Of a stretch of 64,000 nt of DNA, positions 2,191-52,574 are shown one piece after another. Numbering within the stretch: the stretch's first letter is position 1; each line of letters starts with the position of its first letter. The stretch spans positions 2,789,001-2,853,000 of the forward strand of contig NZ_CP109067.1 of assembly GCF_035917335.1 (NCBI RefSeq), read 5' to 3'. The translations under genes were made by a program, and so were the position numbers. The stretch is from Micromonospora sp. NBC_01813 (GTDB lineage Bacteria; Actinomycetota; Actinomycetes; Mycobacteriales; Micromonosporaceae). Below the pieces are notes generated by a model. It saw only the letters and a list, made by a program, of their open reading frames with translations, was not told the DNA's origin and ran no database searches.

Positions 2191-2205
2191 CTTCCTAGCA
2201 AGTGC
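2191..2205 (-). repeat. Stoperator-like repeat, minus orientation
   Basis: CTTCCTAGCAAGTGC (minus: GCACTTGCTAGGAAG), intergenic upstream of the DUF2786 gene. Confidence 0.75.
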
Positions 2206-2207
2206 GG

Positions 2208-2510
2208 TCAGTAGGCGCCGCACGGGACGACAGCGATCCCCGACGGCAGGGTAGTGAGGTCGCTGTTGCCCGCTTCCCAGATGCCCCGGCTGGTCACGAA
2301 CACCATGTAGCAGCCGCCACCCTTGGCTGCGTACCGAGTGACTGCCACGTTGCGGAACCCGTCCGGCATCCGGATGACCTGGGTGTTGCCGCCGTCGATG
2401 ATGTTGTCCGGCGTCGGCTCGGGTGCGTCGCCCTTGGGTGCCGCGCCGCAGCCGGCGACCGCCACCAGAGCGACGGCGACGAGCGCGGCGGCCATCGACT
2501 TCTTGAACAT
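2208..2510 (-). CDS. Small prophage lipoprotein
   Basis: 100 aa. ATG at 2510 has GAGAGGGA upstream. MFKKSMAAALVAVALVAVAGC is a lipoprotein signal peptide: Lys-rich start, hydrophobic core and lipobox VAGC, so the mature protein would be anchored outside the membrane. The mature part has two more cysteines (GGGCYM, VVPCGAY) that could form a disulfide. Prophage lipoproteins sometimes block superinfection; that role is only a guess here. Confidence 0.8.
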   Translation of the reverse strand: MFKKSMAAALVAVALVAVAGCGAAPKGDAPEPTPDNIIDGGNTQVIRMPDGFRNVAVTRYAAKGGGCYMVFVTSRGIWEAGNSDLTTLPSGIAVVPCGAY

Positions 2511-2521
2511 GCTGATCCCTC

Positions 2522-2752
2522 TCATCTGATCCGTGCTTTCACGATCGTGCAGTCCTGGAACGCCCTGTAGGTGTCCTGGACGAGGCGCCACAGTGCCTCC
2601 AGCTCCGCGTCCCGATCCCCCCTGTCGCTCGCCTCGCTCGCCACCATCAGTGATTCCTGGAACGCGGCAACCTCTTCCGCCGGCATCAGGTACACCCGGG
2701 GCAGCTCGGCCACCTGCTCCGGCGACAGGGCTTCCTTAGCAACCTTGGTCAT
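2522..2752 (-). CDS. Small phage protein carrying an in-frame repeat site
   Basis: 76 aa, helical, unknown. The start MTKVAKEALSPEQ encodes a stoperator-like repeat across codons 4-8. ATG overlaps the TGA of the gene before it (ATGA). Confidence 0.65.
   Translation of the reverse strand: MTKVAKEALSPEQVAELPRVYLMPAEEVAAFQESLMVASEASDRGDRDAELEALWRLVQDTYRAFQDCTIVKARIR
2731..2744 (-). repeat. Stoperator-like repeat, minus orientation
   Basis: Minus strand GGTTGCTAAGGAAG, coding VAKE at the start of the 76-aa gene. Confidence 0.7.
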
Positions 2753-5325: not shown

Positions 5326-5876
5326 GCGTCCACCTCGATTCCGAACCTCGCCCGGAACACGGTCCAGCCAGGGCCGCCGAAGATCAGGACGCCCTCCGGC
5401 TCCATGAACCCGGGGGCCGCCATCGAGCCGTTGCACCGCAGGTGCTCAATGGCCTCCTGGACCATGAACACGGTGAACGCGCCCTCGTAGAGCATCGGTA
5501 GGGGCTGGATGCCGATCTCGGGAGCCGACACCTGCCGCTTCGGGTGCAGCGGCGTCCACCGCCGCTCCGAGAGCCCGTAGTTCCGGTTGATCCCGGCGCC
5601 CCACCATTCGCCGTAGTGGCGACCCGGGCCGAGCAGTTCCACCAGCGCTTCGGCCTCCGCGCTGACCCACTCGGCGAACCCGTAGTGATCGTTGTCCACG
5701 GTGAGGACGCGGTTGCGCGACTGCGCGCCCACAAGCCAGCCCGAGCCCCGCTGCTCGATGTAGACGCAGCAGTTCGCGCCATCGATCAGCTCGGTCACGG
5801 TCATGTGGCGTGGCAGCGACTGTGGCGAAGCGTGCCGAGCGACCTCGAAGTCGTCTTCCTTAGCAAGTGTGATCAT
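5322..5876 (-). CDS. RNA-ligase-like protein lacking the catalytic lysine
   Basis: 184 aa, short for a ligase. VTELIDGANCCVYI aligns with motif I of nucleotidyltransferase ligases (KxDG), but Leu replaces Lys (codon CTG). AQSRNRVL, FAEWV and GEWWGAGINRNYGL match the blocks that follow motif I in phage RNA-ligase-domain proteins. Without the lysine it should not form a lysyl-AMP adduct, so it may be an RNA-binding partner or a decayed paralogue. Its start codons MITLAKEDD contain a stoperator-like repeat, and it overlaps the true ligase gene by 4 nt. Confidence 0.7.
   Translation of the reverse strand: MITLAKEDDFEVARHASPQSLPRHMTVTELIDGANCCVYIEQRGSGWLVGAQSRNRVLTVDNDHYGFAEWVSAEAEALVELLGPGRHYGEWWGAGINRNYGLSERRWTPLHPKRQVSAPEIGIQPLPMLYEGAFTVFMVQEAIEHLRCNGSMAAPGFMEPEGVLIFGGPGWTVFRARFGIEVDA
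5855..5869 (-). repeat. Stoperator-like repeat, minus orientation
   Basis: Minus ACTTGCTAAGGAAG, codons 4-8 (LAKED) of the ligase-like gene. Confidence 0.75.
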
Positions 5877-7935: not shown

Positions 7936-8498
7936 GCGATTGCCTCCTTAGCAACTTGAGTGATGGATGGTTGGTTCGCGGTCTTGCCCGCCTCGATCTC
8001 GGAGATCGGTGTCACCCGGGTACGCGACCGTGGCCGCCGCGGCTTGGTCGCCGGGGATGCGGTGTCTTGGTCGGCCGGCTGCACTGCCTTCGCGGCACGT
8101 GGCGTGCGCGCCGGCTTGGCCTGCTCGGCACTCCGGTGCCGACGCGCCAACGACGCCACCGCCTCGGTGCCGAGGTAGATCAGGACGCACCACACGTGGG
8201 CGATCCGCTGGACCAGGTTGTCCCCGGCCACCGCGTTCGCCCCGATGCTCACGGCGCACGCCACCCCCAGCACCGCCCACGCCAGCCGGCGCGCCTGCGG
8301 ATCGATCTCCGGCGAGTTGATGACCAGCGAACTCGCGATCACCGCCAGGTCGACCGTGAGCGGGATGGCCGTGGCCGACACTGGGTCGACGTCGTGGTCG
8401 AGCAGCAGCCCGCGCTGTGTCCAGTAGGAGACGCCGGCCGCGATAGCCGCGATCCCACTGAGCGCCGCACGGGAGCCCCACAGCGTCCTGTCCCCCAT
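7932..8498 (-). CDS. DUF2637-like membrane protein
   Basis: 188 aa with about four hydrophobic segments in residues 10-120 (SGIAAIAAGVSY, IPLTVDLAVIASSLVI, AWAVLGVACAVSIGANA, VWCVLIYLGTEAVASL) and a basic Pro/Thr-rich cytoplasmic tail. This resembles DUF2637 (SpdA/SpdB-type) proteins of actinobacterial mobile elements. The last codons (VAKEA) hold a stoperator-like repeat. Confidence 0.65.
   Translation of the reverse strand: MGDRTLWGSRAALSGIAAIAAGVSYWTQRGLLLDHDVDPVSATAIPLTVDLAVIASSLVINSPEIDPQARRLAWAVLGVACAVSIGANAVAGDNLVQRIAHVWCVLIYLGTEAVASLARRHRSAEQAKPARTPRAAKAVQPADQDTASPATKPRRPRSRTRVTPISEIEAGKTANQPSITQVAKEAIA
7943..7957 (-). repeat. Stoperator-like repeat, minus orientation
   Basis: Minus AAGTTGCTAAGGAGG at the 3' end of the membrane-protein gene, coding VAKE. 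Confidence 0.65.
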
Positions 8499-9135: not shown

Positions 9136-9139
9136 GGGA

Positions 9140-9153
9140 CTTCCTAGCAAGTC
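9140..9153 (-). repeat. Stoperator-like repeat, minus orientation
   Basis: Minus GACTTGCTAGGAAG between the 201-aa gene and the next gene end. Confidence 0.7.
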
Positions 9154-10003: not shown

Positions 10004-10007
10004 CGTT

Positions 10008-10021
10008 CCTCCTTAGCAAGT
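10008..10021 (-). repeat. Stoperator-like repeat, minus orientation
   Basis: Minus ACTTGCTAAGGAGG, placed where the Shine-Dalgarno of the 88-aa gene lies (AAGGAGG), so bound protein could also mask initiation. Confidence 0.7.
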
Positions 10022-10035
10022 TTCAGTTTTGAAAT
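10021..10035 (-). promoter_or_regulatory. TTTCAAWWYTGAAA palindrome copy 4
   Basis: Directly abuts a stoperator-like repeat, 18 nt upstream of the 88-aa gene. Confidence 0.75.
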
Positions 10036-12266: not shown

Positions 12267-12284
12267 ATCACCAGGACGCGCCAG

Positions 12285-12299
12285 GCTTCTTAGCAAGTG
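12285..12299 (-). repeat. Stoperator-like repeat, minus orientation
   Basis: Minus CACTTGCTAAGAAGC, immediately after the GATase stop. Confidence 0.7.
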
Positions 12300-14395: not shown

Positions 14396-14421
14396 GGGGG
14401 TTTCCTCACTTCAGATTGGAT

Positions 14422-14435
14422 TTCCTAGCAAGTCG
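14422..14435 (-). repeat. Stoperator-like repeat, minus orientation
   Basis: Minus CGACTTGCTAGGAA between palindrome copy 7 and the amidoligase start. Confidence 0.65.
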
Positions 14436-14926: not shown

Positions 14927-14943
14927 CGAGGGTTGACTCGCAG

Positions 14944-14958
14944 CTTTCTTAGCAAGCC
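14944..14958 (-). repeat. Stoperator-like repeat, minus orientation
   Basis: Minus GGCTTGCTAAGAAAG, intergenic. Confidence 0.65.
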
Positions 14959-15011: not shown

Positions 15012-15260
15012 TCAGCTAGACCTGATTGCGGACACCTTAGCAAGTGTGGTCGACGGGTACAAGTCCCGGACCGCCTCGATCATCTGCGGAGCCTGCATCT
15101 GCTCCCACGGGGTCGCCGTCGGGTCCGGCTCCACCTCGAACTCACGCCGCCGGTACTCCCGGTTCAGCAGTATCGCCGCCGCGTACGCGGCCTCGAACGG
15201 CACCGCCAGTGAGCCGGCGACGCGCGCGCCATTGCGGGTAACGCAGTACATCATGGACAT
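15012..15260 (-). CDS. 82-aa phage protein, unknown
   Basis: Strong TAGGAGGGCTGA site before ATG 15260. MSMMYCVTRNGARVAGSLAV then a helical AAYAAAILLNREYRRREFEV. The tail (TLAKVS) encodes a stoperator-like repeat. Confidence 0.65.
   Translation of the reverse strand: MSMMYCVTRNGARVAGSLAVPFEAAYAAAILLNREYRRREFEVEPDPTATPWEQMQAPQMIEAVRDLYPSTTLAKVSAIRSS
15033..15048 (-). repeat. Stoperator-like repeat, minus orientation
   Basis: Minus CACACTTGCTAAGGTG, in the 3' end of the 82-aa gene (LAK). Confidence 0.65.
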
Positions 15261-16663: not shown

Positions 16664-17299
16664 CTAGCTCTTGCTGCCCCGGTTGTTCGTGTCGATCCCC
16701 GACGGCAGCCCCTTACGCGCGGTAACCAGGAGCATGGTCAGCCGCGCCTGGAACTCTTCGGTCATCGCGTCTTCCTTAGCAAGTGCCTTCAGAAGGTCGG
16801 CCTCAATGCGCGTCAGGATTTCAACGCCGCTCTTGCCTCGCGGCTCGTTGGCGCTGCCATCGGCACCGACGTCGGTAGCGTCTTCACTCTCGTTTTCCAG
16901 CGTCGACACCTGCCCCGTGGAAATTCCGAGGACAGCGGCAACGTCCTTGCCGTTCACCTTCCCACCGTCACGCGCGACGTTGCGCAGAGCCTTGACAAGC
17001 GCGCGCTTGTCCTCGTGCGTGAGGATGCGTCCGACACGCTGTGCACCGATCTCCGGTCCCAACGTGTCCGCGTATTCCTTAGCAAGTATGCCAGCGGACA
17101 GCGTCAGGACATCGGCCAACAGCATTTCGCTGTAGCCCCGGATATCGGTGGCGTAGCCCTTGATACGGGCAACGATGTCCGCCCGGTTGACCGCGACAGT
17201 CGGGGCAACGGTGGCCACGGTGTCCGGGGTGGTCGGGGTGGTCGGGGTGGCGGTAGCGGCAGTCTTGCGGGTGCGGGTGGTCGCCTTAGCAGTGGTCAC
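16664..17299 (-). CDS. Putative HTH regulator with Thr/Pro/Ala-rich N-terminal tail
   Basis: 211 aa from the GTG at 17299 (GAGGT upstream), preferred over an ATG at 17446 because the extra reading passes through a palindrome as in the other genes. Residues 1-35 are low-complexity (TPTTPTTPDTVATVAPTV). The centre has KDVAAVLGISTGQVSTLENE, a plausible HTH. Two stoperator-like repeats are inside the gene (LAKED, LAKEY). First gene of the leftward arm and its own transcription unit, so a regulator of the arm is a fair guess. Confidence 0.65.
   Translation of the reverse strand: MTTAKATTRTRKTAATATPTTPTTPDTVATVAPTVAVNRADIVARIKGYATDIRGYSEMLLADVLTLSAGILAKEYADTLGPEIGAQRVGRILTHEDKRALVKALRNVARDGGKVNGKDVAAVLGISTGQVSTLENESEDATDVGADGSANEPRGKSGVEILTRIEADLLKALAKEDAMTEEFQARLTMLLVTARKGLPSGIDTNNRGSKS
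16771..16785 (-). repeat. Stoperator-like repeat, minus orientation
   Basis: Minus GCACTTGCTAAGGAAG within the HTH gene (LAKED). Confidence 0.75.
17075..17090 (-). repeat. Stoperator-like repeat, minus orientation
   Basis: Minus ATACTTGCTAAGGAAT within the HTH gene (LAKEY). Confidence 0.75.
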
Positions 17300-17327: not shown

Positions 17328-17451
17328 ATGGGCATTTCGGACATTCCACTCGCCCCCCGGATTTGGGCAGACTCCACCCCTGCACGCAGGGCAGGCTTTC
17401 GCGCGCGCGTCGCGCGCGGGGGGCGGGGGGAGCGGGTTTCCGTCATGGGTC

Positions 17452-17467
17452 AATCTTAGCAAGTAGG
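17452..17467 (-). repeat. Stoperator-like repeat, minus orientation
   Basis: Minus CCTACTTGCTAAGATT; TAAGAT inside it is a fair -10 hexamer for leftward transcription. Confidence 0.75.
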
Positions 17468-17484
17468 CACCCTAGCAAGTATGG
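17468..17484 (-). repeat. Stoperator-like repeat, minus orientation
   Basis: Minus CCATACTTGCTAGGGTG, tandem with the previous copy at the head of the leftward arm. Confidence 0.75.
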
Positions 17485-21983: not shown

Positions 21984-23492
21984 GTGACGCAGCCGGACTT
22001 CGTTGTCGATACGAGTGCCAGAGGGTTGGCTCAGCTTCTGCTGAAAATCATCAGCGAGGATCGGCCCCGGTTCGACGTGATTGACCGGTACGTATTCGGA
22101 GATCACGACAATCCGTACATGCCTGCTGGCGCGGATGAAGAATACCGGCTACTCGCCAAGCGGGCGGTGACGAATCTGATTCCGTTGCTGATCGGGACGC
22201 CGGCCCAGGCCCTGTTCGTCGACTCCTTCCGGCGCGGCAGCCAGGATGCGTCCAAGGACGACCTGGTGGCACCTCCGGAGTGGAACCACTGGCAGGCCAG
22301 CCGACTCGACGCCCGGCAGGGACCGATCTACGACGGCGCGCTGAAGTACGGGCACAGCTTCACGCTGACCGAGCAGGTCAAGGGCCGGGTGCTGACCAAG
22401 GGGCTGAGTGCCTACAACACAGCGGCGGTCTACGAGGACCCGGCCAACGACATCGACCCGTATGCGGCGTTGACGATCGTGCGGGAGGCGAAGCCGGACG
22501 CCAAGACGCCGGCGGCTCGCAGGGGCCTCGCGCGACTGTGGGACGGGATCTACGAGTACCGGGTCACGTTCCTGTCGCCGTCGGACCTGGAGTCCGTGTC
22601 AGTGGGCGAGGGCGTGCCGCACGGCGGCGAAGAGTGCCCCGTGACACGGTTCGCGGCCTCGATGGACCTGGAGGGGCGCACGACCGGCCTCGTTGAGCCC
22701 AACATCGCCAACCAGGACCGCATCAACCAGACCATGTTCGACCTGCTGGTCGCGCAAACCTACGGCTCCTTCAAGATCCGCACGGTGACCGGCATGGCGC
22801 CGCCGATGAAGCGGTGGACGCAGGCCGCGATCGAGGACGGCCAGGCGCCGGAGGGTACGGAGGCCGGCGACCCGGTGATCGACCCAGAGACGGGCCGTCC
22901 GGTGCCGGAGCCGGTGAACCTGAACGCGCGGCGATTCTTCTTCGCCGCCGACAAGGACACGAAGTTCGACACGTTGGATGGCACCTCGCTGGAGGGGTAC
23001 ATCAAGTCGCTGGACATGTCGCTGCGGCACATCGCAGTGATCACGCAGACTCCACCCCACTACTTGCTAGGGGAGATCGCCAACCTGAGCGCCGAGGCGC
23101 TTCAGGCGGCCGAGACGGCGTTGCTGCGCAAGGTTGAGACGTTCCGCAAATCCTTCGGGGAGTCCTGGGAGCGGGTGTTCCGGATCGCGGGCGTCCTGTC
23201 GGGCGACAGTGCGGCTGCCGCGGACTACGCGGGCGAAGTGGTGTGGCGCGATACGCAGATGCGGTCGCTGTCTCGCATCGCTGACGGCCTGGTGAAGCTC
23301 AAGGATCTGGGCATCCCCGGCGTCGGGCTGTGGGGCCGAGTGCCGGAGGCGACGCGTACCGAAATCCAGGAGTGGATGCGGTTGCGCGAGGAGGAGCTGG
23401 CCCGCCTCAAGGCTGACCGCGCCGAGCTGATCGCCGCTGGCGCGTACTCGGCGCAAGACCAGGTTCGCATCGACCGTGAGGTGGTGGAATGA
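21984..23492 (+). CDS. Portal protein
   Basis: 502 aa, GTG start. ISEDRPRFDVIDRYVFGDHD, the TPPHYLLGEIANLSAEALQAA helix region and the C-terminal coiled segment match SPP1 gp6-type portals. A dodecameric ring at the capsid vertex. A stoperator-like repeat lies inside (23061-23075). Confidence 0.9.
   Translation: MTQPDFVVDTSARGLAQLLLKIISEDRPRFDVIDRYVFGDHDNPYMPAGADEEYRLLAKRAVTNLIPLLIGTPAQALFVDSFRRGSQDASKDDLVAPPEWNHWQASRLDARQGPIYDGALKYGHSFTLTEQVKGRVLTKGLSAYNTAAVYEDPANDIDPYAALTIVREAKPDAKTPAARRGLARLWDGIYEYRVTFLSPSDLESVSVGEGVPHGGEECPVTRFAASMDLEGRTTGLVEPNIANQDRINQTMFDLLVAQTYGSFKIRTVTGMAPPMKRWTQAAIEDGQAPEGTEAGDPVIDPETGRPVPEPVNLNARRFFFAADKDTKFDTLDGTSLEGYIKSLDMSLRHIAVITQTPPHYLLGEIANLSAEALQAAETALLRKVETFRKSFGESWERVFRIAGVLSGDSAAAADYAGEVVWRDTQMRSLSRIADGLVKLKDLGIPGVGLWGRVPEATRTEIQEWMRLREEELARLKADRAELIAAGAYSAQDQVRIDREVVE
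23061..23075 (+). repeat. Stoperator-like repeat, plus orientation
   Basis: TACTTGCTAGGGGAG within the portal gene. Confidence 0.65.
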
Positions 23493-25948: not shown

Positions 25949-25965
25949 ATTACTTGCTAGGAAAG
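25949..25965 (+). repeat. Stoperator-like repeat, plus orientation
   Basis: ATTACTTGCTAGGAAAG, intergenic, 31 nt before the capsid gene. Confidence 0.75.
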
Positions 25966-25995
25966 CCTAGCGTACCCTCCTGAGGAGACAATTCA

Positions 25996-29657: not shown

Positions 29658-29672
29658 CACTTGCTAGGAAAG
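29658..29672 (+). repeat. Stoperator-like repeat, plus orientation
   Basis: CACTTGCTAGGAAAG directly after the tail tube stop. Confidence 0.75.
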
Positions 29673-29734
29673 ACAACCCTGACCCGGTCGGAGGCGGACC
29701 CGGCCGGGTCGGGGGTTCCACCTGCTTCACCGCG

Positions 29735-30517: not shown

Positions 30518-33500
30518 GTGGCGGACAAGAACACGGTCGGCAAGGTCTCGATTGAGGTCGGGGCAGACGGCTCCGGATTCCCTCAGGAAGTCAAGGCTGT
30601 CGTCGACAAGGCCGAGAAGGGCGCCAAGCCTATCGAGGTCGGCATGGAGTTGACGGGTGAGGCCGAACTCGTCGCTGACGCCAAAGCCGCCAGCGAGGCG
30701 GCTCAGGCCGCGGCACAGGACATCACCCTCAAGGTCAACATGGACGACCTGGGCTCCGTACAGGCGGCCATCAGCCGGGTCCAGACCGAGCTGGTCAGGC
30801 TCGGCGAGGAGGAGCTGAAGGTCGGCCTGAACCATGACGACCTGGATGCGGCTCTCGACCTGCTGAATGAGCGCGTCCGGGACATCGGTGTCGATATCCG
30901 TGTCGACATGGAGGACGACAAGAGCATCCAGCGCGGCATCAAGGAGATCGACAAGCAGCTTGAGTTGCTTGGTGTTGGTCGGACCGTGCCGATTCACCTG
31001 GAGCTAAATGAGGCCGCGCTCCTTGAGCAGCGCAAGAAGCTCTCCGACTCCCTGAGCGCGCAGGACTTCGAGGTCAACATCCGGCCGATGTTCGAGACCG
31101 AGGTGGACCCGACCAGCAAGGCATCGCTCCAGGCGGCGCTGGACAAGGTTCGCAACGAGCTGTTCCCGCCTCTGAAGCTTCGCGCGGAGATGGACACTCC
31201 GAGCCTGCGGGCACTGGAGGTCAAGCTTCGCGGCGACATCGCGCGGCTGGAGCGCCAGGAGCAAATCGACCTCCAGGTCGCCGCCGAGCTGAGTGCCGCG
31301 GAGTTCGCGCGGATGACCACGCTGGCCCGGTCGCTGATCGATGCACAGAATCTCCGGCTCCCTATCGGCGCGAACCTGGACCACGTGAAGGTCGAGCGGG
31401 CCGTGACTGAGCTGACACTGATGCTCAAGGACCGCGACGACCTGGCGGCGCTCATCGACGCCGAGCTGGACCCGTTCGCCAAGACGAAGCTGGCAACGGA
31501 GTTGCAGCACCTCGACGCGCAGATCAAGGGGTTCGCGCCCGACGTCACGGTCGACGTGGAGCCCGTGGTGCCATCGAGGGCGAGGGCGGCGCTGAGTGCA
31601 ACCCTGGCGCTCCTGACCAGGCCCCGCACCATCCCCATCGACCTCGACCTGAAGGAAGCCATCGCGCAGGCGGGGCTGTTCATCGCGACGCTGTCGACGT
31701 TCAAGGCGTTCACTGACAGTCTGGCGCAGGCACGGACGCTACTGGTCGGCTTGTTCACCAACTTGCCCAACTTCGCGGCTGCCACGGTCGGCATCCTGGC
31801 GATGTCCGGAGCCGTGATTGCACTGTCGGCCAACCTGATCGGGCTGGCCGGTTCGCTGGTCAACCTCACACCGTTGCTGCTGACGCTGCCGGGTATCGCG
31901 ATCGGCTTCGGGACGCTGGCGGCGGCCCTCAAGGACCTGCCGGCGCAGCTACCTGTCATTGCGGCCGGATTCCAGGCACTTCAGGGCGTCATCAGCGAGG
32001 CGTTCTGGTACGTCGCGCGCAACCCCATCGAGCATCTTGCTAAGAAGGCTCTGCCTCTAATCACCGACGGCCTCAAGTCGACGTCTTTCGCGATCAGCGC
32101 CTTCATGTCCTTCCTGTCGGTAGACCTGGCGACGACGTTCCTGCCGGGCCTGCCGAGCATGTTCGGCAACCTCGCTGCGTCGATCGGCACCTTCACCGCA
32201 TTCACCCCCGCCCTGGCGAACATCCTCACGATGTTCGGCCAGCTGGGCTCGTCCCTGCTGCCACCCCTGGCGGCACTGATGGGCCAGGTCGTGACGGAGT
32301 TCTCGGCGTGGTTCGAGACGAACGTGGCCGGCGACCAGATGACCGCCACGATTCAGAACGTCATGGCCGCCCTGTCTGGGGTGTTCGAGATCGTCCAGGG
32401 TGCGGCTGGCGTCTTCGGCGCGCTGTTCGCTGCGGCGAGCGCTGGCGGTGCGTCCTCGTTCGGCAGCCTCGGGGCGTCCCTTCAGGGGATCGCCGACACG
32501 TTGCGCGAGATGCAGCCGATCCTGACCACGTTCTTCCAGTCGGCCGGCGCGCTGTTCGCCGCGTTCAGTGCGCAGGCAGGCGACGGCCTGCGGAACGCGT
32601 TCACCGGCATCACGGAGATCCTGTCGGCAGTGCTACCGACCATCGGCAGCACGCTGGGCAAGGTCATGAACGTCCTGGGCGACCTGCTCAACAACCCGGC
32701 GGTCATCGCGGGGTTCACGGCGTTCATCGACGGTGTCAGCCAGGGCATCACCGCCCTGCTGCCGGCGTTCGTGCCGCTGGCAAGCCTGCTCGGTGCGCTC
32801 GGCCCGACGTTGGGCCTCTTGGCCACGCAGATCGGGCAGACGCTCGGGGCCCTGGCTCCGTCGTTCGGCGGGATCCTGGAAGCCCTGATGCCGCTGATCA
32901 CGGTGCTTTCCACGAACCTCCAGAGCGTTCTGATTGCGCTGGGTCCGGTTATTCAGCAGATCGCTGACGTGCTGGCCCAGGCGTTCGCGAACCCAGCGCT
33001 CCACGCAGCCATCGGCGCAATCGCTGATGCGCTGATCGCCGTCATTCCGGCGCTGTCCCCGATTCTCGGCCTACTGCCGGCGATCATGGACCTGCTCGCC
33101 GGAGCCCTGCTGTCGATTGCCGGACCACTGGCCGGATTGATCGGCCAGTTGGCGCCGGCTTTCGGGTTGATCGCCGAGATCTTGCCGCAGGTGTTCGCCG
33201 CGATAGCTCCACTGATTCCGCTGGTCATGGATCTGCTGGTTTCCATTCTAGAGCCGCTGATTCCACTGGTGGTGTTGCTGGCTTCGGCGATCCTGCCGCT
33301 CCTGGTGCCGGTTCTGCAACTCGTCTCGGTCGCATTGCAGGCCGTGATCTCCGCCCTCAGCGCCATGCTGGGCATCATTCTCCCTCCGCTGATCGTGATT
33401 CTGACCAACCTGGCCGGGATCATTGGCGTCGTGTCGGTGGCAATCGGCGCCGCTATCACCTGGATTACCGAGTGGATGGAAAAGGGTCTCGGCAAGATGC

Positions 33501-39251: not shown

Positions 39252-40025
39252 TTGAACGTCATCACCCGCGCCCAGTGGGGCGCTCGTGCCCCGGAGCGTG
39301 CTTCGTACCAGGCAACCTGGGCGCAGCGCACCACCTTCTACGTGCACTACTCGGCGGCGTCGAAGACGCAGAAGGTCCGGGCCATCCAGGACTACCACAT
39401 GGACACCCATGGCTGGAACGACATCGGCTACAACTGGCTGGTCGACTCGGCCGGCAACATCTACGAGGGTCAGGGCTGGCTGAGCATCGGCGCCCACGTC
39501 GCCAACCACAACACCGCCGGTATCGGCGTGTGTTTCATCGGCAAGGATGGCGACGACACCAAACTTGCTAGGGAGGCCATCCGCTGGCTGTATGACGAGG
39601 CGTGCCGGCGTGCCGGTCGCAAGCTGGCCATCAAGGGTCACCGCGACTCCAACGCCACCAAGTGCCCCGGTGACAAGCTGTACGCCTGGGTGCGAGCGGG
39701 CCTGCCGGTCGATGCGCCGAAGCCGCCGACCACCGGCGCCACCTACACCGTCGTTCGGGGCGACACCCTCAGCGGGATCGCCGCACGCTACGGCACCACC
39801 GTGGCGAAGATCGCCGAGCTGAACGGCATCAAGAACGCCAACCTGATCCACCCGGGCCAGAAGCTGAAGCTGCCCTCGACCCCGTCGAGCCACACCGTCG
39901 TTCGGGGCGACACCCTGGGTGGCATCGCGAAGCGGTACGGCACCACGGTCGACAAGCTGGTGAAGCTGAACGGAATCAAGAACCCCAACCTGATCCACCC
40001 GGGCCAGAAGCTGAAGCTGCGATGA
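39252..40025 (+). CDS. Endolysin: N-acetylmuramoyl-L-alanine amidase with two LysM domains
   Basis: 257 aa. TTG start at 39252 chosen because GGGAGA is 6 nt upstream and [12 protein letters not shown] begins the domain. The amidase-2/PGRP part has [37 protein letters not shown] and [12 protein letters not shown] with the zinc His/Cys residues. Two LysM repeats ([40 protein letters not shown]) bind peptidoglycan. No mycolate esterase is present, consistent with a host lacking mycolic acids. Confidence 0.92.
39561..39576 (+). repeat. Stoperator-like repeat, plus orientation
   Basis: AAACTTGCTAGGGAGG within the endolysin gene (LAREA). Confidence 0.65.
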
Positions 40026-40444: not shown

Positions 40445-40669
40445 CTATCGTCGTTTGCGAGCCGCCTCGACTTCCTTCATGCTGACCACCTGGACCGACC
40501 TTCGGGCTCGACGGCGCGGTTGCCGCTGGGGCCGCGAGGCTGCCAGGATGGCCTCTAGGTCGACGGCGTGCTCAGCGCACCGCACGGCTGTTCCCGTTCG
40601 GTCCCCGGCCGCCACGGTGTAAGTTGTGACTGGTCGGGTCAAGCTTTTGCAAACACCACAGGTTTCCAT
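40445..40669 (-). CDS. Small zinc-knuckle protein opposite the repressor gene
   Basis: 74 aa, METCGVCKSLTRPV start with CxxC, one later Cys and a basic Arg-rich tail (RQPRRRARRS). Transcribed divergently from the repressor; its promoter region includes the repressor operators. A Cro-like or regulatory role is possible by position only. Confidence 0.6.
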   Translation of the reverse strand: METCGVCKSLTRPVTTYTVAAGDRTGTAVRCAEHAVDLEAILAASRPQRQPRRRARRSVQVVSMKEVEAARKRR

Positions 40670-40677
40670 GACATCCG

Positions 40678-40690
40678 AGTTGCTAAATGT
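40678..40690 (+). repeat. Stoperator-like repeat at repressor promoter
   Basis: AGTTGCTAAATGT; supplies a TTGCTA -35-like hexamer. Confidence 0.7.
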
Positions 40691-40708
40691 TTCAGGGCTT
40701 GCTAAGGT
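40680..40708 (+). promoter_or_regulatory. Repressor promoter overlapping two repeat sites
   Basis: TTGCTA (40680-40685), 17-nt spacer, TAAGGT (40703-40708). Both hexamers are parts of repeat copies, so a protein binding them would control this promoter directly, as expected of autoregulation. Confidence 0.7.
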
Positions 40709-40712
40709 GTCC
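40698..40712 (+). repeat. Stoperator-like repeat at repressor promoter
   Basis: GCTTGCTAAGGTGTC; includes the -10 hexamer TAAGGT. Confidence 0.75.
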
Positions 40713-40740: not shown

Positions 40741-41196
40741 GTGTCTGTGAGTAAGCTCCAGAATCGCGACGAGTTCACACGCTGGTACCAGGAGGGCAAG
40801 ACTTACTCCTGGATCATCGAAGAGTACCAGCGGAAGTACGGCATCGAGATCGGCGCGGGCACCATCTCCAACTGGCGGTCCCAGCTCGGCCTGGAGAAGC
40901 GGGCGGTGCGCGACTCCACCCTGATCCCATGGGCGGTGAAGCCGGAGCACCGCTTCGACCACATCCTCCACATGCTGCGCACCGAGGCGCGCCGTCGCGG
41001 CGGTCATCCGATCCCGCCGGCCCGACTCAAGAAGTTGAACGGCTTCCTGGCCAACCTCGAAGCACAGGATGCGGTGGTGCACTACGACCCCGACACCGAG
41101 CAGGGCTGGTGGCTCGTGCACCGTCGCCCGGAGGTCGACACCGACATCATCCGCGTGCCCGACAAGGTCACCCGCGAGCGCGGCGCTCGCGACTAG
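40741..41196 (+). CDS. Candidate immunity repressor (HTH DNA-binding protein)
   Basis: 151 aa, GTG start with GGGGAGGG. Residues 15-45 (YSWIIEEYQRKYGIEIGAGT then ISNWRSQLGL) form an HTH; the C-terminal half has TLIPWAVKPEHRF, HMLRTEARRRGGH and VVHYDPDTEQGWWLV, which I associate with actinophage repressor-like proteins. Its promoter contains two repeat sites, it faces a divergent small gene, and it sits beside the early operon. These are the features of a phage repressor. Direct binding is not shown. Confidence 0.7.
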   Translation: MSVSKLQNRDEFTRWYQEGKTYSWIIEEYQRKYGIEIGAGTISNWRSQLGLEKRAVRDSTLIPWAVKPEHRFDHILHMLRTEARRRGGHPIPPARLKKLNGFLANLEAQDAVVHYDPDTEQGWWLVHRRPEVDTDIIRVPDKVTRERGARD

Positions 41197-41244: not shown

Positions 41245-41272
41245 GTCGTTTAGGTGGTTGTCGTTGGCTCGC

Positions 41273-41498: not shown

Positions 41499-41615
41499 TG
41501 GTCATCTTCATTACCCCCCGCTATGCCGGGGCGCATGGGTGGGACGGGTCGAGTCCGCGACACCTTGCCGCCTCGTTGCGACATCTAGCGGATCTTGCTG
41601 GTACGGTTCACTAGC
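41499..41615 (+). CDS. Possible 38-aa leader peptide
   Basis: ATG 41499 to TAG 41615; begins MVIFITPRYAGAHGWDGSSP. No strong ribosome site, and its 3' end overlaps the early operator, so it may be chance. Confidence 0.25.
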
Positions 41616-41618
41616 AAG
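41594..41618. promoter_or_regulatory. Inverted operator upstream of the early operon
   Basis: CTTGCTGGT-acggttc-ACTAGCAAG: two repeat cores facing each other, the only inverted pair in the window. A TACGGT -10-like hexamer (41602-41607) lies in the centre, 35 nt before the first early gene. Best candidate for the repressor-controlled lytic promoter. Confidence 0.65.
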
Positions 41619-41642
41619 TGAGGGCGGCCGGAAGGTGGCGGT

Positions 41643-41849: not shown

Positions 41850-42806
41850 ATGGGGCTAGTCAGACTGGATGCGCACAAGGAACGAGCACGGGGAGCCGGC
41901 GGGAACCGCGAGGTCCCTCGCAACGGCAGGAAACAACCACTGATCATCCCGCTCGGCCCGGACGGACGTCCGGACCTTGAAGCCAAGCTCAAGCCGTACA
42001 CCCGGATGACCACGTACATCGACTGTCTCGAAGACAAGTCCGCGCTCTCCTGGTGGCACAGGCGGCTAACCCTGATCGGGCTGGCAAGGCTGCCGGAAGG
42101 CAAGCGGGCCGACGTGGTGGCCCGAATCCTGAAGGCAGATGCCGACGGGGACAAGGAAGCCCTGAAGGGGATCGCCAGGTGGATGCACAAGGTGGCCGGC
42201 GGCGACGACAAGGCCGACCAGGGCGACTGGATTCACGAGTTGAGCGAGTACGCCGACAAGAACGAGGCGCTGCCGGCGAAAGCCAGCGACGACGACCGGG
42301 CTGACATCGCCGCCTACAAGCTGGCGACGATCGACCTGGAGGTCAGGGAGATCGAGCGCTTCGTGGTGCTGGACGACTACAAGGTGGGCGGGACGCCGGA
42401 CCGGATGAGCTGGTACGACGGACCGGACCCGGACGGCATGGAGCCAGCCGGCCACCTGATCACCGACCTCAAGACGGGTCGGGTCGACTTCGGCGCGCTC
42501 AAGATGGCGATGCAACTCGCCGGGTACGCACGGGGTCAGCGGTACGACCCGGCCACCGGGATACGGATGCCGTGGCCCAACGACATGAACCTGAACTGGG
42601 GTCTGATCATCAACGCACCGGCCGGCACCGGCACGTGCGAAGTGATGTGGGTGGACCTGAAGCTTGGCTGGGAGGGCTTCCAGCTCGCCCAGAAGGTCAG
42701 GGACATCCGACGCCTAGGAAACCGGGCGTTCCGCCCGTACCCATCAGCTAGTGCACCACTTGCTAAGGAAGACGCCTCGGATGAGGCAGACGAGGGAGAC
42801 GAATGA
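41850..42806 (+). CDS. PD-(D/E)XK exonuclease (RecB/Cas4-like)
   Basis: 318 aa. GTPDRM, LITDLKTGRV (the D...DxK core) and ALKMAMQLAGYARG (QxxxY-type helix) are the RecB-family nuclease motifs. First enzyme of the early recombination/replication set. Its tail (PLAKEDAS) encodes a stoperator-like repeat. Confidence 0.85.
   Translation: MGLVRLDAHKERARGAGGNREVPRNGRKQPLIIPLGPDGRPDLEAKLKPYTRMTTYIDCLEDKSALSWWHRRLTLIGLARLPEGKRADVVARILKADADGDKEALKGIARWMHKVAGGDDKADQGDWIHELSEYADKNEALPAKASDDDRADIAAYKLATIDLEVREIERFVVLDDYKVGGTPDRMSWYDGPDPDGMEPAGHLITDLKTGRVDFGALKMAMQLAGYARGQRYDPATGIRMPWPNDMNLNWGLIINAPAGTGTCEVMWVDLKLGWEGFQLAQKVRDIRRLGNRAFRPYPSASAPLAKEDASDEADEGDE
42757..42771 (+). repeat. Stoperator-like repeat, plus orientation
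   Basis: CACTTGCTAAGGAAG, exact consensus, in the exonuclease 3' end. Confidence 0.8.
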
Positions 42807-43717: not shown

Positions 43718-44175
43718 TGGCACTTGCTAAGAAGGACGCGATCGGTGGCAGCCTGGCCCCGTTCTTCAAGCCGGAGAACCACGCCAACGACCTGGCGCTC
43801 ATCTTCGAGCCGCTGAGCATCCGCGAAGGCATCGTCGGCAAGTTCGGCCCCCGGGACCACATCAAGGTCAAGGTCACCGCGTTCCGCTCCCAGGACGCCC
43901 TCGACAAGGGAGCGCCCTCCTCGGAGGAGGTGGTGGAGATCAACGCCACCGTGCTCGCCAAGGACCTGAAGGAACTGATGGAGAACGCTCGCAAGTCGGG
44001 CGACAACGCTCCAGCCCTGATCGCCACCCTGATGCACTACCAGCCGAAGAACGGCGGCAACAAGAGCTGGGTGTTCCGGCTCCCGACCGATGCCGACTAC
44101 GACAAGGCGGTGGCCTTCTACGAGGACCGCGAAGCCAAGCTCCAGGCAGCTCTGGCGGACGTGCCGGACTTCTGA
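43717..44175 (+). CDS. Possible single-stranded DNA-binding-like protein
   Basis: 152 aa; MALAKKDAIGGSLAPFFKPE start, then GIVGKFGPRDHIKVKVTAFR, a likely OB-type strand region, and an acidic end. Context between exonuclease and helicase suggests ssDNA binding, but no diagnostic motif. Codons 2-6 carry a stoperator-like repeat. Confidence 0.5.
   Translation: MALAKKDAIGGSLAPFFKPENHANDLALIFEPLSIREGIVGKFGPRDHIKVKVTAFRSQDALDKGAPSSEEVVEINATVLAKDLKELMENARKSGDNAPALIATLMHYQPKNGGNKSWVFRLPTDADYDKAVAFYEDREAKLQAALADVPDF
43721..43736 (+). repeat. Stoperator-like repeat, plus orientation
   Basis: CACTTGCTAAGAAGGA, 4 nt after the ATG of the 152-aa gene. Confidence 0.75.
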
Positions 44176-45406: not shown

Positions 45407-45422
45407 GACTTGCTATGGAATC
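45407..45422 (+). repeat. Stoperator-like repeat over a start codon
   Basis: GACTTGCTATGGAATC: here the word has ATG in place of AAG, so it contains the start codon of the 41-aa gene. Confidence 0.6.
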
Positions 45423-48762: not shown

Positions 48763-49497
48763 TTGAGGACGCTCTACCTCGACATCGAGACGACCCCGAA
48801 CCTGGCGTACGTGTGGAGGCTGTGGCGACAGAACGTCTCGCTGTCACAGCTGGTCGACACGGCTCAGGTGCTCTGCGTCGCGTGGAAGTGGCGCGGAGAG
48901 CGGCCGGTGCAGTTCGCCGGCATCAACGGCGGGCACCAGGAAATGCTGGATGCGGTGCACGCGGCGCTCACCGAGGCCGAGCTGGTGGTGCACTACAACG
49001 GCAAAGTGTTCGACATCCCGCACTTGAACCGGGCGTTCGTGATGGCGGGCATGAAGCCGCCGGCACCGTACGCGCAGCTCGACATCCTGTCCCAGGTGCG
49101 CAAGCAGTTCAGATTCCCTAGCAACAAGCTGGCGCACGTCAGCGAGGCGCTGGGTCTGGAGGGGAAGGTCGAGCACTCCGGCTTCAATCTATGGGTGCGT
49201 TGCATGGCCGGAGAAGCCTCGGCGTGGCAGGAAATGGAGCGCTACAACAAGCGCGACGTCCTCTTGCTAGAGGAGCTGCACGACCGGCTCAGTGGCTGGC
49301 TGCCCGGCTCCCCGAACGCGCGACTCCTCGACGACCGCGACGACGTGTGCCCGCAGTGCGGCTCGGATGACCTTCGGCGCGAAGGGCACGCGTTCACTCA
49401 GGTTGGCAAGGTTCAGCGGTGGCAGTGCCGGGCGTGTGGTGCCTGGTCGCGGTCCAGCGCTCGGGTTTCCGGTACGCAGATCAGGAGCATGTCGTGA
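48763..49497 (+). CDS. DnaQ-like 3'-5' exonuclease with zinc ribbon
   Basis: 244 aa, TTG start. LYLDIETTP (DxE), HYNGKVFDIPHLNR (Exo II) and YNKRDVLLLEELH (Exo III) are the DEDDy exonuclease motifs. C-terminal CPQCGSDDLRREG ... CRACGAW zinc ribbon. Possible proofreading or nucleic-acid degradation; no DNA polymerase gene is seen in this window. Confidence 0.85.
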   Translation: MRTLYLDIETTPNLAYVWRLWRQNVSLSQLVDTAQVLCVAWKWRGERPVQFAGINGGHQEMLDAVHAALTEAELVVHYNGKVFDIPHLNRAFVMAGMKPPAPYAQLDILSQVRKQFRFPSNKLAHVSEALGLEGKVEHSGFNLWVRCMAGEASAWQEMERYNKRDVLLLEELHDRLSGWLPGSPNARLLDDRDDVCPQCGSDDLRREGHAFTQVGKVQRWQCRACGAWSRSSARVSGTQIRSMS

Positions 49498-49811
49498 CCA
49501 CAGTTGCTAAGGAAGCCAAGACCGCGGCTGCGGACTGGTCGTTCATGGACGTCCCGGAGACGGTGGCCGCCGTGAGGCAGGCCGCGCGGATCGTTTCGGC
49601 CCGGTACCGGGAGCGCGCGGTCAACATGCTCGCCGAGTACGACGACCTGCTCCAGGACGGCCTGCTCCTAGTTGCTACGAAGGATCGCCTCCGGAACCTC
49701 GACCCGAGGCTGCTGACCTTCCGGCTGATCCAGGAGCTGAACGGCACGGCGAAGTACGGAGCACCGAAGGCCCGCTCGACGGTCTACCTGTCCGAGCTGG
49801 AGAACGAGTGA
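49494..49811 (+). CDS. 105-aa helical phage protein
   Basis: GTG with AGGAGC. MTTVAKEAKTAAADWSFMDV start (repeat site), then helices DLLQDGLLLVATKDRLRNLD. Reminiscent of sigma-like helix bundles, not assignable. Confidence 0.6.
   Translation: MTTVAKEAKTAAADWSFMDVPETVAAVRQAARIVSARYRERAVNMLAEYDDLLQDGLLLVATKDRLRNLDPRLLTFRLIQELNGTAKYGAPKARSTVYLSELENE
49499..49515 (+). repeat. Stoperator-like repeat, plus orientation
   Basis: CACAGTTGCTAAGGAAG, codons 3-7 (VAKEA). Confidence 0.75.
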
Positions 49812-50338
49812 GTGTGGGCGTACCCGGCTCCTACCGGTCACTGGACTGGAGGGGCCGGTACAGCCCGGAACTGGTAGCGGTGGTGCTCCCGACGGTCTGG
49901 GGGCACCCCCCGTGGCTCGGTCGGGTGCAGGCGCTCGACCGGTGTCAGCGCGGAGCTGGCAAGTGCGGTCACATCTGCTACCTGGACCAGTGGAACGAGG
50001 GCTGCACGGTCGACGGCGATCACAGGATCTGTTCCCACCGCCACGGCGGGCACGACCAGTGCGGCCGGTGCACCTGCGTCTCGCCCTACTCCCGGCGCTC
50101 CACCGACAACCGCGAACCCGACATGCATGTGCAGTCCCTCGATGTCCAGCGCGCGTACCGGGCGCTGTTCGCCAACCGAGACACCGTGATCGCCGAGGCG
50201 CTGCGACTGCGCCACGACAGCGGATTCAGCCACGAAGAGATCGCCGTCATCCAAGGCGTCAGCCGGCAGGCCGTTGGCCTGCGTCTGCGGGCGGGTCACC
50301 TCGCCATCGCCGACTTCCTGAATGGAGACAGGGCATGA
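49808..50338 (+). CDS. Cys-rich protein with C-terminal HTH
   Basis: 176 aa, GTG. Middle has CGHICYLDQW, CTVDGDHRICSH and CGRCTC, a multi-Cys/His zinc region; the C-terminus SHEEIAVIQGVSRQAVGLRL is an HTH of sigma-70 region 4 type. Probably a late or middle gene regulator (inference). Confidence 0.65.
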   Translation: MSVGVPGSYRSLDWRGRYSPELVAVVLPTVWGHPPWLGRVQALDRCQRGAGKCGHICYLDQWNEGCTVDGDHRICSHRHGGHDQCGRCTCVSPYSRRSTDNREPDMHVQSLDVQRAYRALFANRDTVIAEALRLRHDSGFSHEEIAVIQGVSRQAVGLRLRAGHLAIADFLNGDRA

Positions 50339-50730
50339 CCGACAACCACACCCAGCTTCCCCCGGACGTCATCGGGCACATGGCCAGCCTCCAGAGCCGT
50401 GACGAGTCGCTGGACCTGTGCAACTCGTGCCTCCGCGCCCTCCTGTACGGCGCTCTGGCGCACCTGGGATCGGCGGGGGTGAACTTGGTTGAGGGCGATC
50501 AGGAAGCCGCCGGACGGCACATCTCAGCCGCCACGACGGTGCTCCTGGAGCTGGTGAAGGCAGACTTCGAGGGGGCGACCAACTTCATTGACCTGCCCGA
50601 CGTGCAGTACTGGCGGGCGGCGCTGCTGTCGTTCTACCAGGCGCGCGTCGATCACTACTGCGACCCCAACACCGGGGCGATCCGGTTCGACCCGCACGAC
50701 GACGCCAGCCCGGCCGGGGCGCCGGCATGA
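50335..50730 (+). CDS. 131-aa phage protein, unknown
   Basis: ATG with GGAGACAGGGC. Helical (CNSCLRALLYGALAHLGSAG) with CNSC. No motif beyond a Cys pair. Confidence 0.55.
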   Translation: MTDNHTQLPPDVIGHMASLQSRDESLDLCNSCLRALLYGALAHLGSAGVNLVEGDQEAAGRHISAATTVLLELVKADFEGATNFIDLPDVQYWRAALLSFYQARVDHYCDPNTGAIRFDPHDDASPAGAPA

Positions 50731-51005
50731 AGCGGCTGTTCGTGGGCGGCGAGTGGCACGGTCGGGTGGTCGAGATCCCCGACGACCATCGGCACACCCT
50801 GGTTCCGGTCCCTCCCCCCTCGGCGTGGTTCGACGGGCCATGGGTGTTTACGGCCCGAACCCTGGTCTACGAGCTTCGCACGATCTCCCTCGGTGACGGA
50901 CTGGCGGTCATCGACGTCATGGTGTTCGGTCCGCTCGGGATGTCCCGGGTTGTCGACGCCCTGGTGCACGCGGCCGGGGTGCCGTTCCGGGACTGGGGAG
51001 CGTGA
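50727..51005 (+). CDS. 92-aa phage protein, unknown
   Basis: ATGA overlap. MKRLFVGGEWHGRVVEIPDD; YELRTISLGDG. Resembles small actinophage hypothetical proteins with GGEWHG starts. No role. Confidence 0.55.
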   Translation: MKRLFVGGEWHGRVVEIPDDHRHTLVPVPPPSAWFDGPWVFTARTLVYELRTISLGDGLAVIDVMVFGPLGMSRVVDALVHAAGVPFRDWGA

Positions 51006-51154
51006 CCCACACCGTGCCGGACAGCGTCCGGACCCACTTCCGCCAACTCGGTAGGGAGTGGGTCCGGAGCCACCCGGACCCACAGCGAGACGTCGAGGTG
51101 ACTGGCATCCTCCGGGAGATCCGGAGAGACAAGGTCAGTCGCGAGGAACGATAA
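51002..51154 (+). CDS. 50-aa last early protein
   Basis: GTG overlap; TAA at 51152-51154. Begins MTHTVPDSVRTHFRQLGREW, basic and helical. Its 3' end overlaps the integrase 3' end by 20 nt on the other strand. Confidence 0.45.
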   Translation: MTHTVPDSVRTHFRQLGREWVRSHPDPQRDVEVTGILREIRRDKVSREER

Positions 51155-52574
51155 CGATCGAATCCAGGGGCGTCCCGCCCCACTTGCTACTGGCACCCTT
51201 CCCGACTGGCTTGACGATGATCCGCTTGAGGTAGCGGCCCAGGATCTCCCGGCGCATGTGCAGGGTTTCCGGATCATCGTCAAGCCAGTCGTCTAGTTCC
51301 TGCTCCCGGTCGACCGGGACGACAGCCTGCTTAACCAGGTCCCCCTGCTTAGTCCGCAGCTCCTGGATCTGCTGCCTCCTGGGGATGATCTGGTCCAGGG
51401 CCTCATCGTCGGTGTAGATGCCCTTGGCGAGCCCGCTCTGGATCCGCCGGATCTCGGCCGCGATCTCCTGGATCTCAGCTTCGATGGCCGGGCTGTCGCT
51501 GACCTCCACTTCCGGGGCGCCGACTCTGCCCTCGATGGCACCGGCCACCCATTCCCGCACCGCAGTCTCCAGCCAAGGACGCTGGCGCGAGCACTGGCCG
51601 CAGCCGCCCCGCTGGGAGATGCAGACGTAGCGGTTGATGCCGCCCTTCTCCTCCGACCTGTAGACCTGGGCTGACATCGGGGCACCGCAGAGGCAGTACA
51701 CGAAGCCTGGCAGCAGGTACTTTCGCGCCCGTGGCGGACCGCCCTTCCCCTTGGCACCCCGCCCCCCGAGGGCTTCCAGGATGGCTTCGTGCTCGGCCCT
51801 GGTGAAGATGGCGGGCCAGTTGCCGACACCAACCACCACTCCGTCGTGAGCCACGAGCCCGGCGATCCGGGGATTCCTCAGGGTTCGCGCCACGTTGCCG
51901 TCGTTGGTCCACTCCTTCCCGAGCGGCGTCCTGACGCCCATGCGCTGCCACAGCTTGCGCACCTCGGACACCTTCCCGGTGCGGATCAGCCTCGCCATGC
52001 CGTCCCGCAACGCCTTCTTGGCGACCGGGTCGATCTCTCGGCAGTAACCCAGCGGAGAGCCGTGGACGTAGCCGAACGTCCTGGCCCCGCCATGCAGCTC
52101 ACCGGCCTCCCTTCGCCGCTTGGCGGCCCTCTCAACCCGTTCCCCGGTGCGCTCGGCCTCGCCCGCGTCAACCGCGGCCTTGATTCGGGCGACCATCCGG
52201 CCGTCGGCGGTCGACAGGTCGTCGGTGCCACTCTTGACGGTGTGGAGCAAGGTGCCCCTGACCTCGTGCAGCTTGATCAGGCGCTCCAGCTCCATCGGTC
52301 GACGAGTGAAGCGGCCGTTGCTCAGCGACACGAGGACGTCGAGGTGTCCGGCTTCGGCCGCGGTCATCATGTCCTCGTAGTCGGGCCGGCGCTTGCGGGC
52401 CTTCGTGCTGGCCGACAGGTCGTTGTCGACGTAGACGCGGACGACCTCGAAGCCGAGGTTGGCTGCCAGCTCCCGGCAGTCGGCCTCCTGGTCGCGGACG
52501 CCCTTCTCCAGACTCTCCCGGTCCTGGCTGATCCGGCAGTAGATCGCGCAGCGTAGCGGAGTCGGCTCACCCAC
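51135..52574 (-). CDS. int: Large serine integrase
   Basis: 479 aa from the GTG at 52574 (AGGGG upstream); a longer reading would cross the attachment site and the ideR leader. AIYCRISQDRESLEKG holds the catalytic Ser; LSNGRFTRRPMELERL is the resolvase block; a recombinase domain, a zinc ribbon (YCLCGAPM ... CISQRGGCGQC) and a coiled-coil segment follow. It joins attP and attB; an excision factor would be needed and none is recognised here. A weak repeat-like word lies at 51178-51193. Confidence 0.93.
   Translation of the reverse strand: MGEPTPLRCAIYCRISQDRESLEKGVRDQEADCRELAANLGFEVVRVYVDNDLSASTKARKRRPDYEDMMTAAEAGHLDVLVSLSNGRFTRRPMELERLIKLHEVRGTLLHTVKSGTDDLSTADGRMVARIKAAVDAGEAERTGERVERAAKRRREAGELHGGARTFGYVHGSPLGYCREIDPVAKKALRDGMARLIRTGKVSEVRKLWQRMGVRTPLGKEWTNDGNVARTLRNPRIAGLVAHDGVVVGVGNWPAIFTRAEHEAILEALGGRGAKGKGGPPRARKYLLPGFVYCLCGAPMSAQVYRSEEKGGINRYVCISQRGGCGQCSRQRPWLETAVREWVAGAIEGRVGAPEVEVSDSPAIEAEIQEIAAEIRRIQSGLAKGIYTDDEALDQIIPRRQQIQELRTKQGDLVKQAVVPVDREQELDDWLDDDPETLHMRREILGRYLKRIIVKPVGKGASSKWGGTPLDSIVIVPRD

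Follow-up and report, generated by a model that had tools for sequence, protein, structure and literature searches.

The 64,000-nucleotide stretch of the Micromonospora sp. NBC_01813 chromosome that we analyzed (the window) contains a prophage in which a short asymmetric word, ACTTGCTARGGAAG, is repeated along both arms. We consider it very probable (roughly 0.92) that these words are the sites of the prophage's own immunity repressor, i.e., that they form a repressor-operator/stoperator system of the R4-like kind, with binding and transcriptional arrest attributed by homology. Judged from its genes, the prophage is R4-like (Arquatrovirinae, cluster BD) and resides in a host of the Micromonospora family, and its system is a new word specificity of an already published kind, not a new kind. 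A sequence-only reading of the window had proposed stoperators with their own consensus, read by a 151-aa helix-turn-helix (HTH) protein, and our analysis supports this proposal: the protein is homologous, by profile and by fold, to a cluster A repressor, the words are directional and absent from the background of host and family, the same word stands beside a similar repressor in a related prophage (G201), and words follow repressors across R4-like phages. What that reading missed was the R4-like identity of the prophage and a copy of the word that is inverted and probably belongs to a promoter operator.

Searching for ACTTGCTAAG with at most one mismatch at any position, we found 24 sites in positions 1-52600 of the window, where 0.67 were expected under an order-2 Markov model; an 11-mer search with two mismatches was drowned by other frequent words, probably reflecting codon usage, and this stricter 10-mer search was used instead. 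TTGCTA is invariant in all 24 sites and is mostly followed by (A/G)G(G/A)A(A/G)G, the exact 15-mer CACTTGCTAAGGAAG occurs at 5855 (-), 16771 (-) and 42757 (+), and a looser weight-matrix scan marks 31 places in the window. The repeated word, for which about 27 copies had been estimated, is real, and the 11 positions named earlier were all recovered within 2-3 bases. Each of the 24 sites points with transcription, with 14 of 14 on the minus strand at 1.0-17.5 kb and 10 of 10 on the plus strand at 23-49.5 kb, and this switch agrees with the leftward and rightward arms of predicted genes (called with a simple in-house script). The claim that the strand follows transcription holds for these 24 close copies and fails for weaker copies at 41605 (-, score 16.6), 49112 (-, 15.9), 9138 (+, 10.9) and 9096 (+, 10.2), which run against transcription; the plus copy at 9138 overlaps a minus copy. 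The antisense copy at 49112-49127 (-) lies inside a gene, as does one at a similar place in G201 (51979-51994, -), and both may reflect coding constraint instead of a site.

A motif search of the prophage and its whole 7.63-Mb host genome, the check proposed with the sequence-only reading, returned strand-biased close matches that are nearly confined to the prophage. For example, 15 of 16 matches to CTTGCTARGRAR lie within it, and with at most one mismatch allowed it holds 23 of the 26 matches to ACTTGCTARGRARNM; of the 39 matches to the latter that have exactly two mismatches, 33 are outside. Loose matches carry no meaning and only close ones do, because at up to two mismatches the reversed pattern, used as a control, is commoner in the genome than the word (169 matches versus 65 for ACTTGCTARGRARNM). 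Beyond 52.6 kb, where the word had been said to be absent from host DNA, the window holds two matches only, each with 4 of 15 positions mismatched. Among 354 genomes of the family, exact 15-mers occur more than once only in the source genome (nine copies, eight in the prophage) and in G201 (eight); another 26 have one copy each, giving 28 of 354 with any. One host copy in the source genome lies far from the prophage (G000:C1:7030660-7030674) and is probably due to chance. In the viral contigs scanned for the exact 15-mer, 44 stretches had one match each. Chi- or KOPS-like polarity signals, which serve replication, recombination or packaging, would also be skewed, spread through the phage genome and switched in strand between the arms. 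Being read by the machinery of the host or by conserved phage proteins, they should abound in the host or recur across R4-like phages; with so few family genomes holding any exact copy, and with no TTGCTARG word in phiScoe25 or BroPlease, we regard such a signal as highly improbable.

By placement, 11 of the 24 sites are intergenic, seven lie no more than 35 bp from the end of a predicted gene and six fall inside genes, and 11 of the 13 sites that overlap a gene use the frame CTT GCT AAG. Cluster K mycobacteriophages carry start-associated sequences at start codons, and the word might similarly be a translation or transcription element, with its AAGGA part as a ribosome binding site. Its 3' half (AAGGAAG or AAGGAGG) does resemble a Shine-Dalgarno sequence, and three sites either overlap a predicted start or end no more than 12 bp ahead of one (four if the ATG at 17446 is used). 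The other 20-21 sites, however, lie past starts, at gene ends, in farther gaps, or inside genes with the next start as much as 2.3 kb away, relatives occupy the same places with other words, and a copy inverted to transcription recurs in these relatives; we therefore hold a start-associated role to be very unlikely.

The 151-aa protein matches the cluster A repressor-DNA structure 7R6R both by family profile and by fold (21% identity over 138 structurally aligned residues), and is homologous to the L5-type repressor with its HTH and Stoperator domain. Other structure matches (VIA, Foldseek) covered mainly the N-terminal helices or were weak. Its identity is 46% to R4 gp29, about 62% to the L116 repressor, 72% to that of G201 and 76% to that of G169, the closest; the recognition-helix region reads GTISNWRSQLGL here and PSMWGNFRRRRGL in R4. 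The sites could instead be read by another phage protein, such as the small Cys/His protein encoded divergently from the repressor, an open reading frame (ORF) that also accompanies the repressor in G201, in G283 and in six of the eight solitary modules described below. R4 carries a leftward gene at the same place, gp28, annotated "DNA binding protein", which we liken to it by position only. However, it is the repressor that is homologous to a solved repressor-stoperator complex and the repressor that the word tracks, and a different reader seems to us quite unlikely.

The covariation of word and repressor was examined in 83 of 114 loci (80 viral, 33 genomic and the window), the 31 left out being mainly short, with a filter that required 12-fold enrichment of a word and a copy near the repressor. 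The window's word was set by hand, six genomes were added outside the filter, and L077, with the same repressor as G201, was dropped when another word scored higher there. G201 has 24 copies of the same word, of which 23 follow the transcription of their arm, and L116 has ACTTGCTATG seven times in 18 kb, on a single strand throughout. De novo searches recovered TGTGTAAGTG in R4 (16 sites versus 0.47 expected), GTGTGTAACC in Caliburn (15 versus 0.92), GTGTGATAGA in BroPlease (16 versus 0.58), TGTGACAGTG in phiScoe25 (27 versus 2.1) and ATACTGCAAG in G283 (24 versus 0.80), and no convincing word in L078. Both in R4 and in BroPlease 15 of 16 sites follow transcription by arm, and the one that does not is, in each, the copy immediately behind the repressor; in R4, the site at 23470 runs antisense to gp28, a small gene. 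Among 34 dereplicated records of 38, word similarity tracks repressor identity (Spearman 0.79, 0 of 2000 permutations), and the partial correlation is 0.54, 0.62 and 0.54 (0 of 1000 each) given Dit, exonuclease and hub protein, over 31, 33 and 31 records, respectively. The reverse partials of word with Dit, exonuclease and hub protein, given the repressor, are 0.12, 0.11 and 0.34. Words thus track the repressor beyond general relatedness across R4-like phages. Of the 38 records, three have CTTGCTA words, and the same three are those whose repressors contain GTISNWR(S/H/Y)QLGL.

An element acting as RNA, for instance an antitermination site of the nut/boxA type, would likewise follow transcription, as this word does. 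The recurring inverted copy beside the early promoter would, however, be useless as RNA, the words covary with a DNA-binding repressor, and related words, ACTTGCAA (G303a, G239, G197) and ATTTGCTA (G169), precede solitary repressors with no phage genes found nearby, all of which leaves an RNA element with very little probability. Distances, inverted copies, covariation and rarity in family genomes are the grounds on which we set aside the antitermination, start-associated and polarity explanations.

Comparison with relatives also separates two kinds of repressor site. An inverted copy stands after the repressor and before the early genes in 26 of the 32 loci that passed the filter, which itself demands either such a copy or one before the repressor. 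In 22 of 29 records, a promoter (TTGACA-like, 16-19 bp, xAxxxT) lies within 55 bp upstream of the inverted copy, compared with 1 of 226 sense copies (not dereplicated); these records were chosen for having an inverted copy, include the window with its position entered by hand, and had duplicates removed by upstream sequence. Directly before the window's inverted copy, GCGACA-18 bp-TACGGT (41578-41607, read by eye) is common to the window and G201. Relatives also share a second site place, which lies between the repressor and the small gene divergent from it; the only aligned relative without a similar word there, G234, is truncated and uninformative. Since promoters precede inverted copies and almost never sense copies, we read the former as operators and the latter as stoperators: the copy at 41605 is probably the operator of the early promoter, the other, sense copies are probably stoperators, and the gap copies at 40677-40711 are likely autoregulatory.

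Sites made of different words also recur at the same places when projected on the window. They coincide before the capsid gene (R4, Caliburn and the window), after the capsid gene (BroPlease, G283 and R4, to within 1 bp), where the exonuclease gene ends (six genomes) and after the gene ending at 44175 (phiScoe25, BroPlease, Caliburn and R4, within 2 bp). Projected sites were discarded when no mapped gene lay within 700 bp of them (one in G201, 12 in G283, five in R4, four in BroPlease, 18 in phiScoe25 and four in Caliburn). We counted 34 same-strand pairs within 25 bp, versus a mean of 4.5 and a maximum of 13 under uniform placement, and a mean of 14.7 and a maximum of 28 when sites were placed near gene ends (300 draws each); the phages are related and the pairs are not independent. 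With the inverted copy entered by hand, 10 of 25 window sites coincide with G201 sites.

Several results weigh against the repressor-stoperator interpretation. Taken singly, the repressor sequence matches no Pfam family and has no PDB relative (phmmer, E up to 10), and only the family profile finds one. Only 32 of the 83 loci yielded a word that passed the filter; in the related prophage G326 the best candidate word, with 8 sites on both strands versus 0.27 expected (score 9.2), was not convincing, and transcription is followed less strictly by the sites of Caliburn (10 of 15) and phiScoe25 (at least 4 of 27 opposed). Nine phage-free regions reach word scores of 6.5-17.7, overlapping those of Caliburn, BroPlease, R4 and phiScoe25 (13.1-20.2); this prophage (28.2) and G201 (29.3) score above them, at thresholds that differ slightly. 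As a predictor of the word, the 17-aa recognition-helix region does not surpass the remainder of the repressor (partial 0.16 versus 0.40), and the window's own sites coincide with those of phages with other words five times, which is not above the mean of 4.6 under near-gene-end placement. The promoter beside 41605 is weak: the promoter test was failed by the window, G201, G283, L130, L159, L162 and Caliburn, and sigma-70 promoter scans at 40400-41900 and 17000-19200 found none.

In the mechanism that we propose, the two-domain repressor (HTH plus Stoperator domain), a monomer by analogy, would read the asymmetric word. Bound at the inverted copy beside the early rightward promoter, it would block initiation, and at one or two of the gap copies it would autoregulate its own gene. 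The tandem pair at 17450-17481 would stand at the head of the leftward arm, and the remaining copies, pointing with transcription, would stop leaking RNA polymerase, keeping both arms silent; superinfection immunity would be expected of such a system. The predicted sites and other features are collected in Table 1.

Table 1. Predicted repressor sites and other features of the window (stoperator and operator roles are predictions).
Feature	Position	Strand	Remarks
Stoperator	1069..1084	-	In gene
Stoperator	2189..2204	-	Intergenic; coincides with G201 site
Weaker stoperator	2730..2745	-	7 bp past start codon; 2 mismatches in 10-mer; outside the 24
Stoperator	5854..5869	-	Exact consensus; 7 bp past start codon
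Stoperator	7942..7957	-	
Stoperator	9138..9153	-	Intergenic
Stoperator	10007..10022	-	Intergenic
Stoperator	12284..12299	-	Intergenic
Stoperator	14419..14434	-	Intergenic
Stoperator	14943..14958	-	Intergenic
Stoperator	15031..15046	-	Coincides with G201 site
Stoperator	16770..16785	-	Exact consensus; in gene
Stoperator	17073..17088	-	In gene
Stoperator/operator	17450..17465	-	Tandem pair heading leftward arm
Stoperator/operator	17466..17481	-	Tandem pair heading leftward arm; coincides with G201 site
Stoperator	23061..23076	+	Inside gene 22167-23492 (portal by position)
Stoperator	25951..25966	+	Before capsid gene; place also used by R4 and Caliburn, each with its own word
Stoperator	29658..29673	+	After major tail gene (by position); R4 and G201 sites here
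Stoperator	32034..32049	+	Inside tape measure gene; also in G201
Stoperator	39562..39577	+	In gene
Weak repressor-proximal site	40677..40692	+	AGTTGCTAAATG; divergent intergenic region; similar word in 6 of 7 aligned relatives
Repressor-proximal site	40696..40711	+	Likely autoregulatory operator
Inverted copy	41605..41620	-	Likely operator of early rightward promoter; counterparts at same place in relatives
Stoperator	42757..42772	+	Exact consensus; near exonuclease gene end; five relatives have sites within 36 bp
Stoperator	43721..43736	+	4 bp past start codon; core identical in G201
Stoperator	45407..45422	+	Overlaps start codon; also in G201
Stoperator	49501..49516	+	7 bp past start codon; also in G201
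Immunity repressor	40741..41196	+	Stoperator-binding by homology; 151 aa; GTG start (40747 also possible)
Divergent small ORF	40445..40669	-	74 aa; C-x2-C...C-x2-H pattern
Serine integrase	51135..52700	-	Longest ORF; phrog_95 E 3.3e-86, Pfam Resolvase; right end of prophage
tRNA-Arg(ccg) gene	17851-17925		Between leftward and rightward arms
HNH gene	18370-18660		Adjoins the two tRNA genes between arms
tRNA-Met(cat) gene	18897-18969		Between leftward and rightward arms
WhiB-like transcription factor gene	887-1720	-	Left end of window; HTH matches in C-terminal part
Palindrome copies	2172, 7167, 9121, 10021, 11890, 12191, 14451, 14912, 16506, 16543, 16579, 17314, 29736		

The kinship of the prophage is evident from its genes: all 53 phage records that match window positions 19000-43900 are Streptomyces phages, 28 of 86 predicted prophage genes match R4 by tblastn (including terminase at 60%, portal at 56% and exonuclease at 40%), and the gene order and homologous structural, repressor and replication genes are common to the prophage and R4-like phages. 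Repressor-stoperator regulation in R4 is stated in PMC10276819, citing Smith et al. 2013; for its own phages, the same paper reports at least eight R4 stoperator sites located between genes. PMC6550527 also names Streptomyces phages that have systems of this sort. As in R4-like Streptomyces phages, the repressor lies between lysis and early genes, the sites are directional and an inverted copy precedes the early genes; R4 gp29 is annotated "similar to L5 gp71". The prophage differs from R4 in its word (ACTTGCTARGGAAG versus TGTGTAAGTG, the R4 word being the one found de novo here, not its published consensus), in its recognition-helix region and in its host, of the Micromonospora family and not Streptomyces. 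In cluster A, L5 and TipsytheTRex have a two-domain repressor and 20-30 asymmetric sites that follow transcription and lie in promoters and gaps, one of them upstream of the repressor (PMC9283540, PMC6550527). This prophage shares the two-domain fold, the asymmetric, transcription-oriented sites, in a number (24) within that range and partly in gaps, and the site upstream of the repressor, but its word is another one, its repressor is only 21% identical, and that repressor lacks about 30 residues in length compared with the L5 protein (183 residues). G201 is alike in word, strand layout and 10 matching site places, and unlike in its repressor, which is identical in the aligned part to that of IMGVR_UViG_2617270872, and in its integrase, where the match is just 25% identical. 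The accounts in PMC10276819 and PMC6550527, in the parts we drew on, mention neither this word nor a Micromonospora-family host, and no literature search was aimed at the word.

A second repeat family is present in the prophage, a near-perfect palindrome TTTCA(A/G)TTTTGAAA of 14 bp per copy, with 13 of 13 copies outside predicted genes; 12 of them belong to the leftward arm and precede predicted leftward starts by 15-97 bp. A sister set in G201 comprises six intergenic copies in its leftward arm and one more inside the tape measure gene. From its form and placement, the palindrome looks like the operator of a dimeric regulator.

Many actinobacterial chromosomes also carry homologs of the repressor away from other phage genes. 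Of 12 family repressor loci with longer flanks, three (G201, G326 and G283) contain other prophage genes and nine match none of the window's other prophage genes; among these nine, G197 has about 2.5 kb only on one side and the G234 repressor is truncated. In the 33 genome-collection loci, 10 have at least four further places that match window or R4 genes, two have one and 21 have none, where six of the 21 are shorter than 15 kb and the 3.4-kb locus of G283, a real prophage, also showed none. The solitary homologs, from several actinobacterial genera, are G169/L194, G303a, G239, G197, G205, G176, G189/L201 and G303b, with further loci among the 21 (e.g., L196, L199, L200, L208 and L226) that have no other window or R4 phage gene nearby. 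G169, for all its repressor identity, does not carry the word, and no other prophage gene was found there. At the threshold used, a stretch of about 0.8 kb is all that it has in common with G303a, G239 and G197; among themselves, the latter three show long synteny around the module. The recognition helix of these four repressors, GTISNWRHQLGL, is nearly that of the prophage repressor. The solitary repressors are intact and, where tested, under purifying selection, with dN/dS in six pairs of 0.24-0.34 within the G169/G303a/G239/G197 group, 0.14 for G205/G176 and 0.26 for G189/G303b. Operator-like words are present in the modules where they could be aligned. When 106 of the 132 neighbours predicted around 13 solitary loci, by a caller that misses genes, were compared with PHROGs, PADLOC and Pfam, 62, 194 and 137 families matched, respectively; the best 25 of each list are mostly metabolic and contain one minor-tail-like match but no block of phage structural genes. 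Methyltransferases are among these 25, as are further families of defence type or of transposases, each matched by one or two members.

In cluster A, a cloned repressor alone confers immunity, generally weaker than that of a lysogen against the same phage (PMC6550527). It is a tentative possibility, and one we doubt somewhat more than we favour, that chromosomes keep solitary stoperator-repressor modules (the repressor, a shared operator and, in most, the small divergent Cys/His gene) without a prophage, and that the Micromonospora group, given its nearly identical recognition helix and related operator word, may read the prophage's word and silence an incoming phage of the same immunity via its operators and stoperators simultaneously; we lowered its odds because TTGCAA stands in place of TTGCTA in three of the four operator words. 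Among the titles listed by literature searches, with most subscription journals beyond reach, none concerns such modules.

The prophage adds an immunity specificity, with its word, to the R4-like group in a Micromonospora-family host, and the 34 dereplicated repressor-word pairs are material for studying how two-domain repressors choose their words. The comparison separates, in R4-like phages, operators (inverted, promoter-borne) from stoperators (sense, promoter-free). If the tentative view of the solitary modules is true, they would amount to a chromosomal immunity of one or two genes, maintained by selection and turned against a phage at that phage's own silencing sites, and these modules make it testable whether bacteria retain phage repressors as stand-alone immunity genes.

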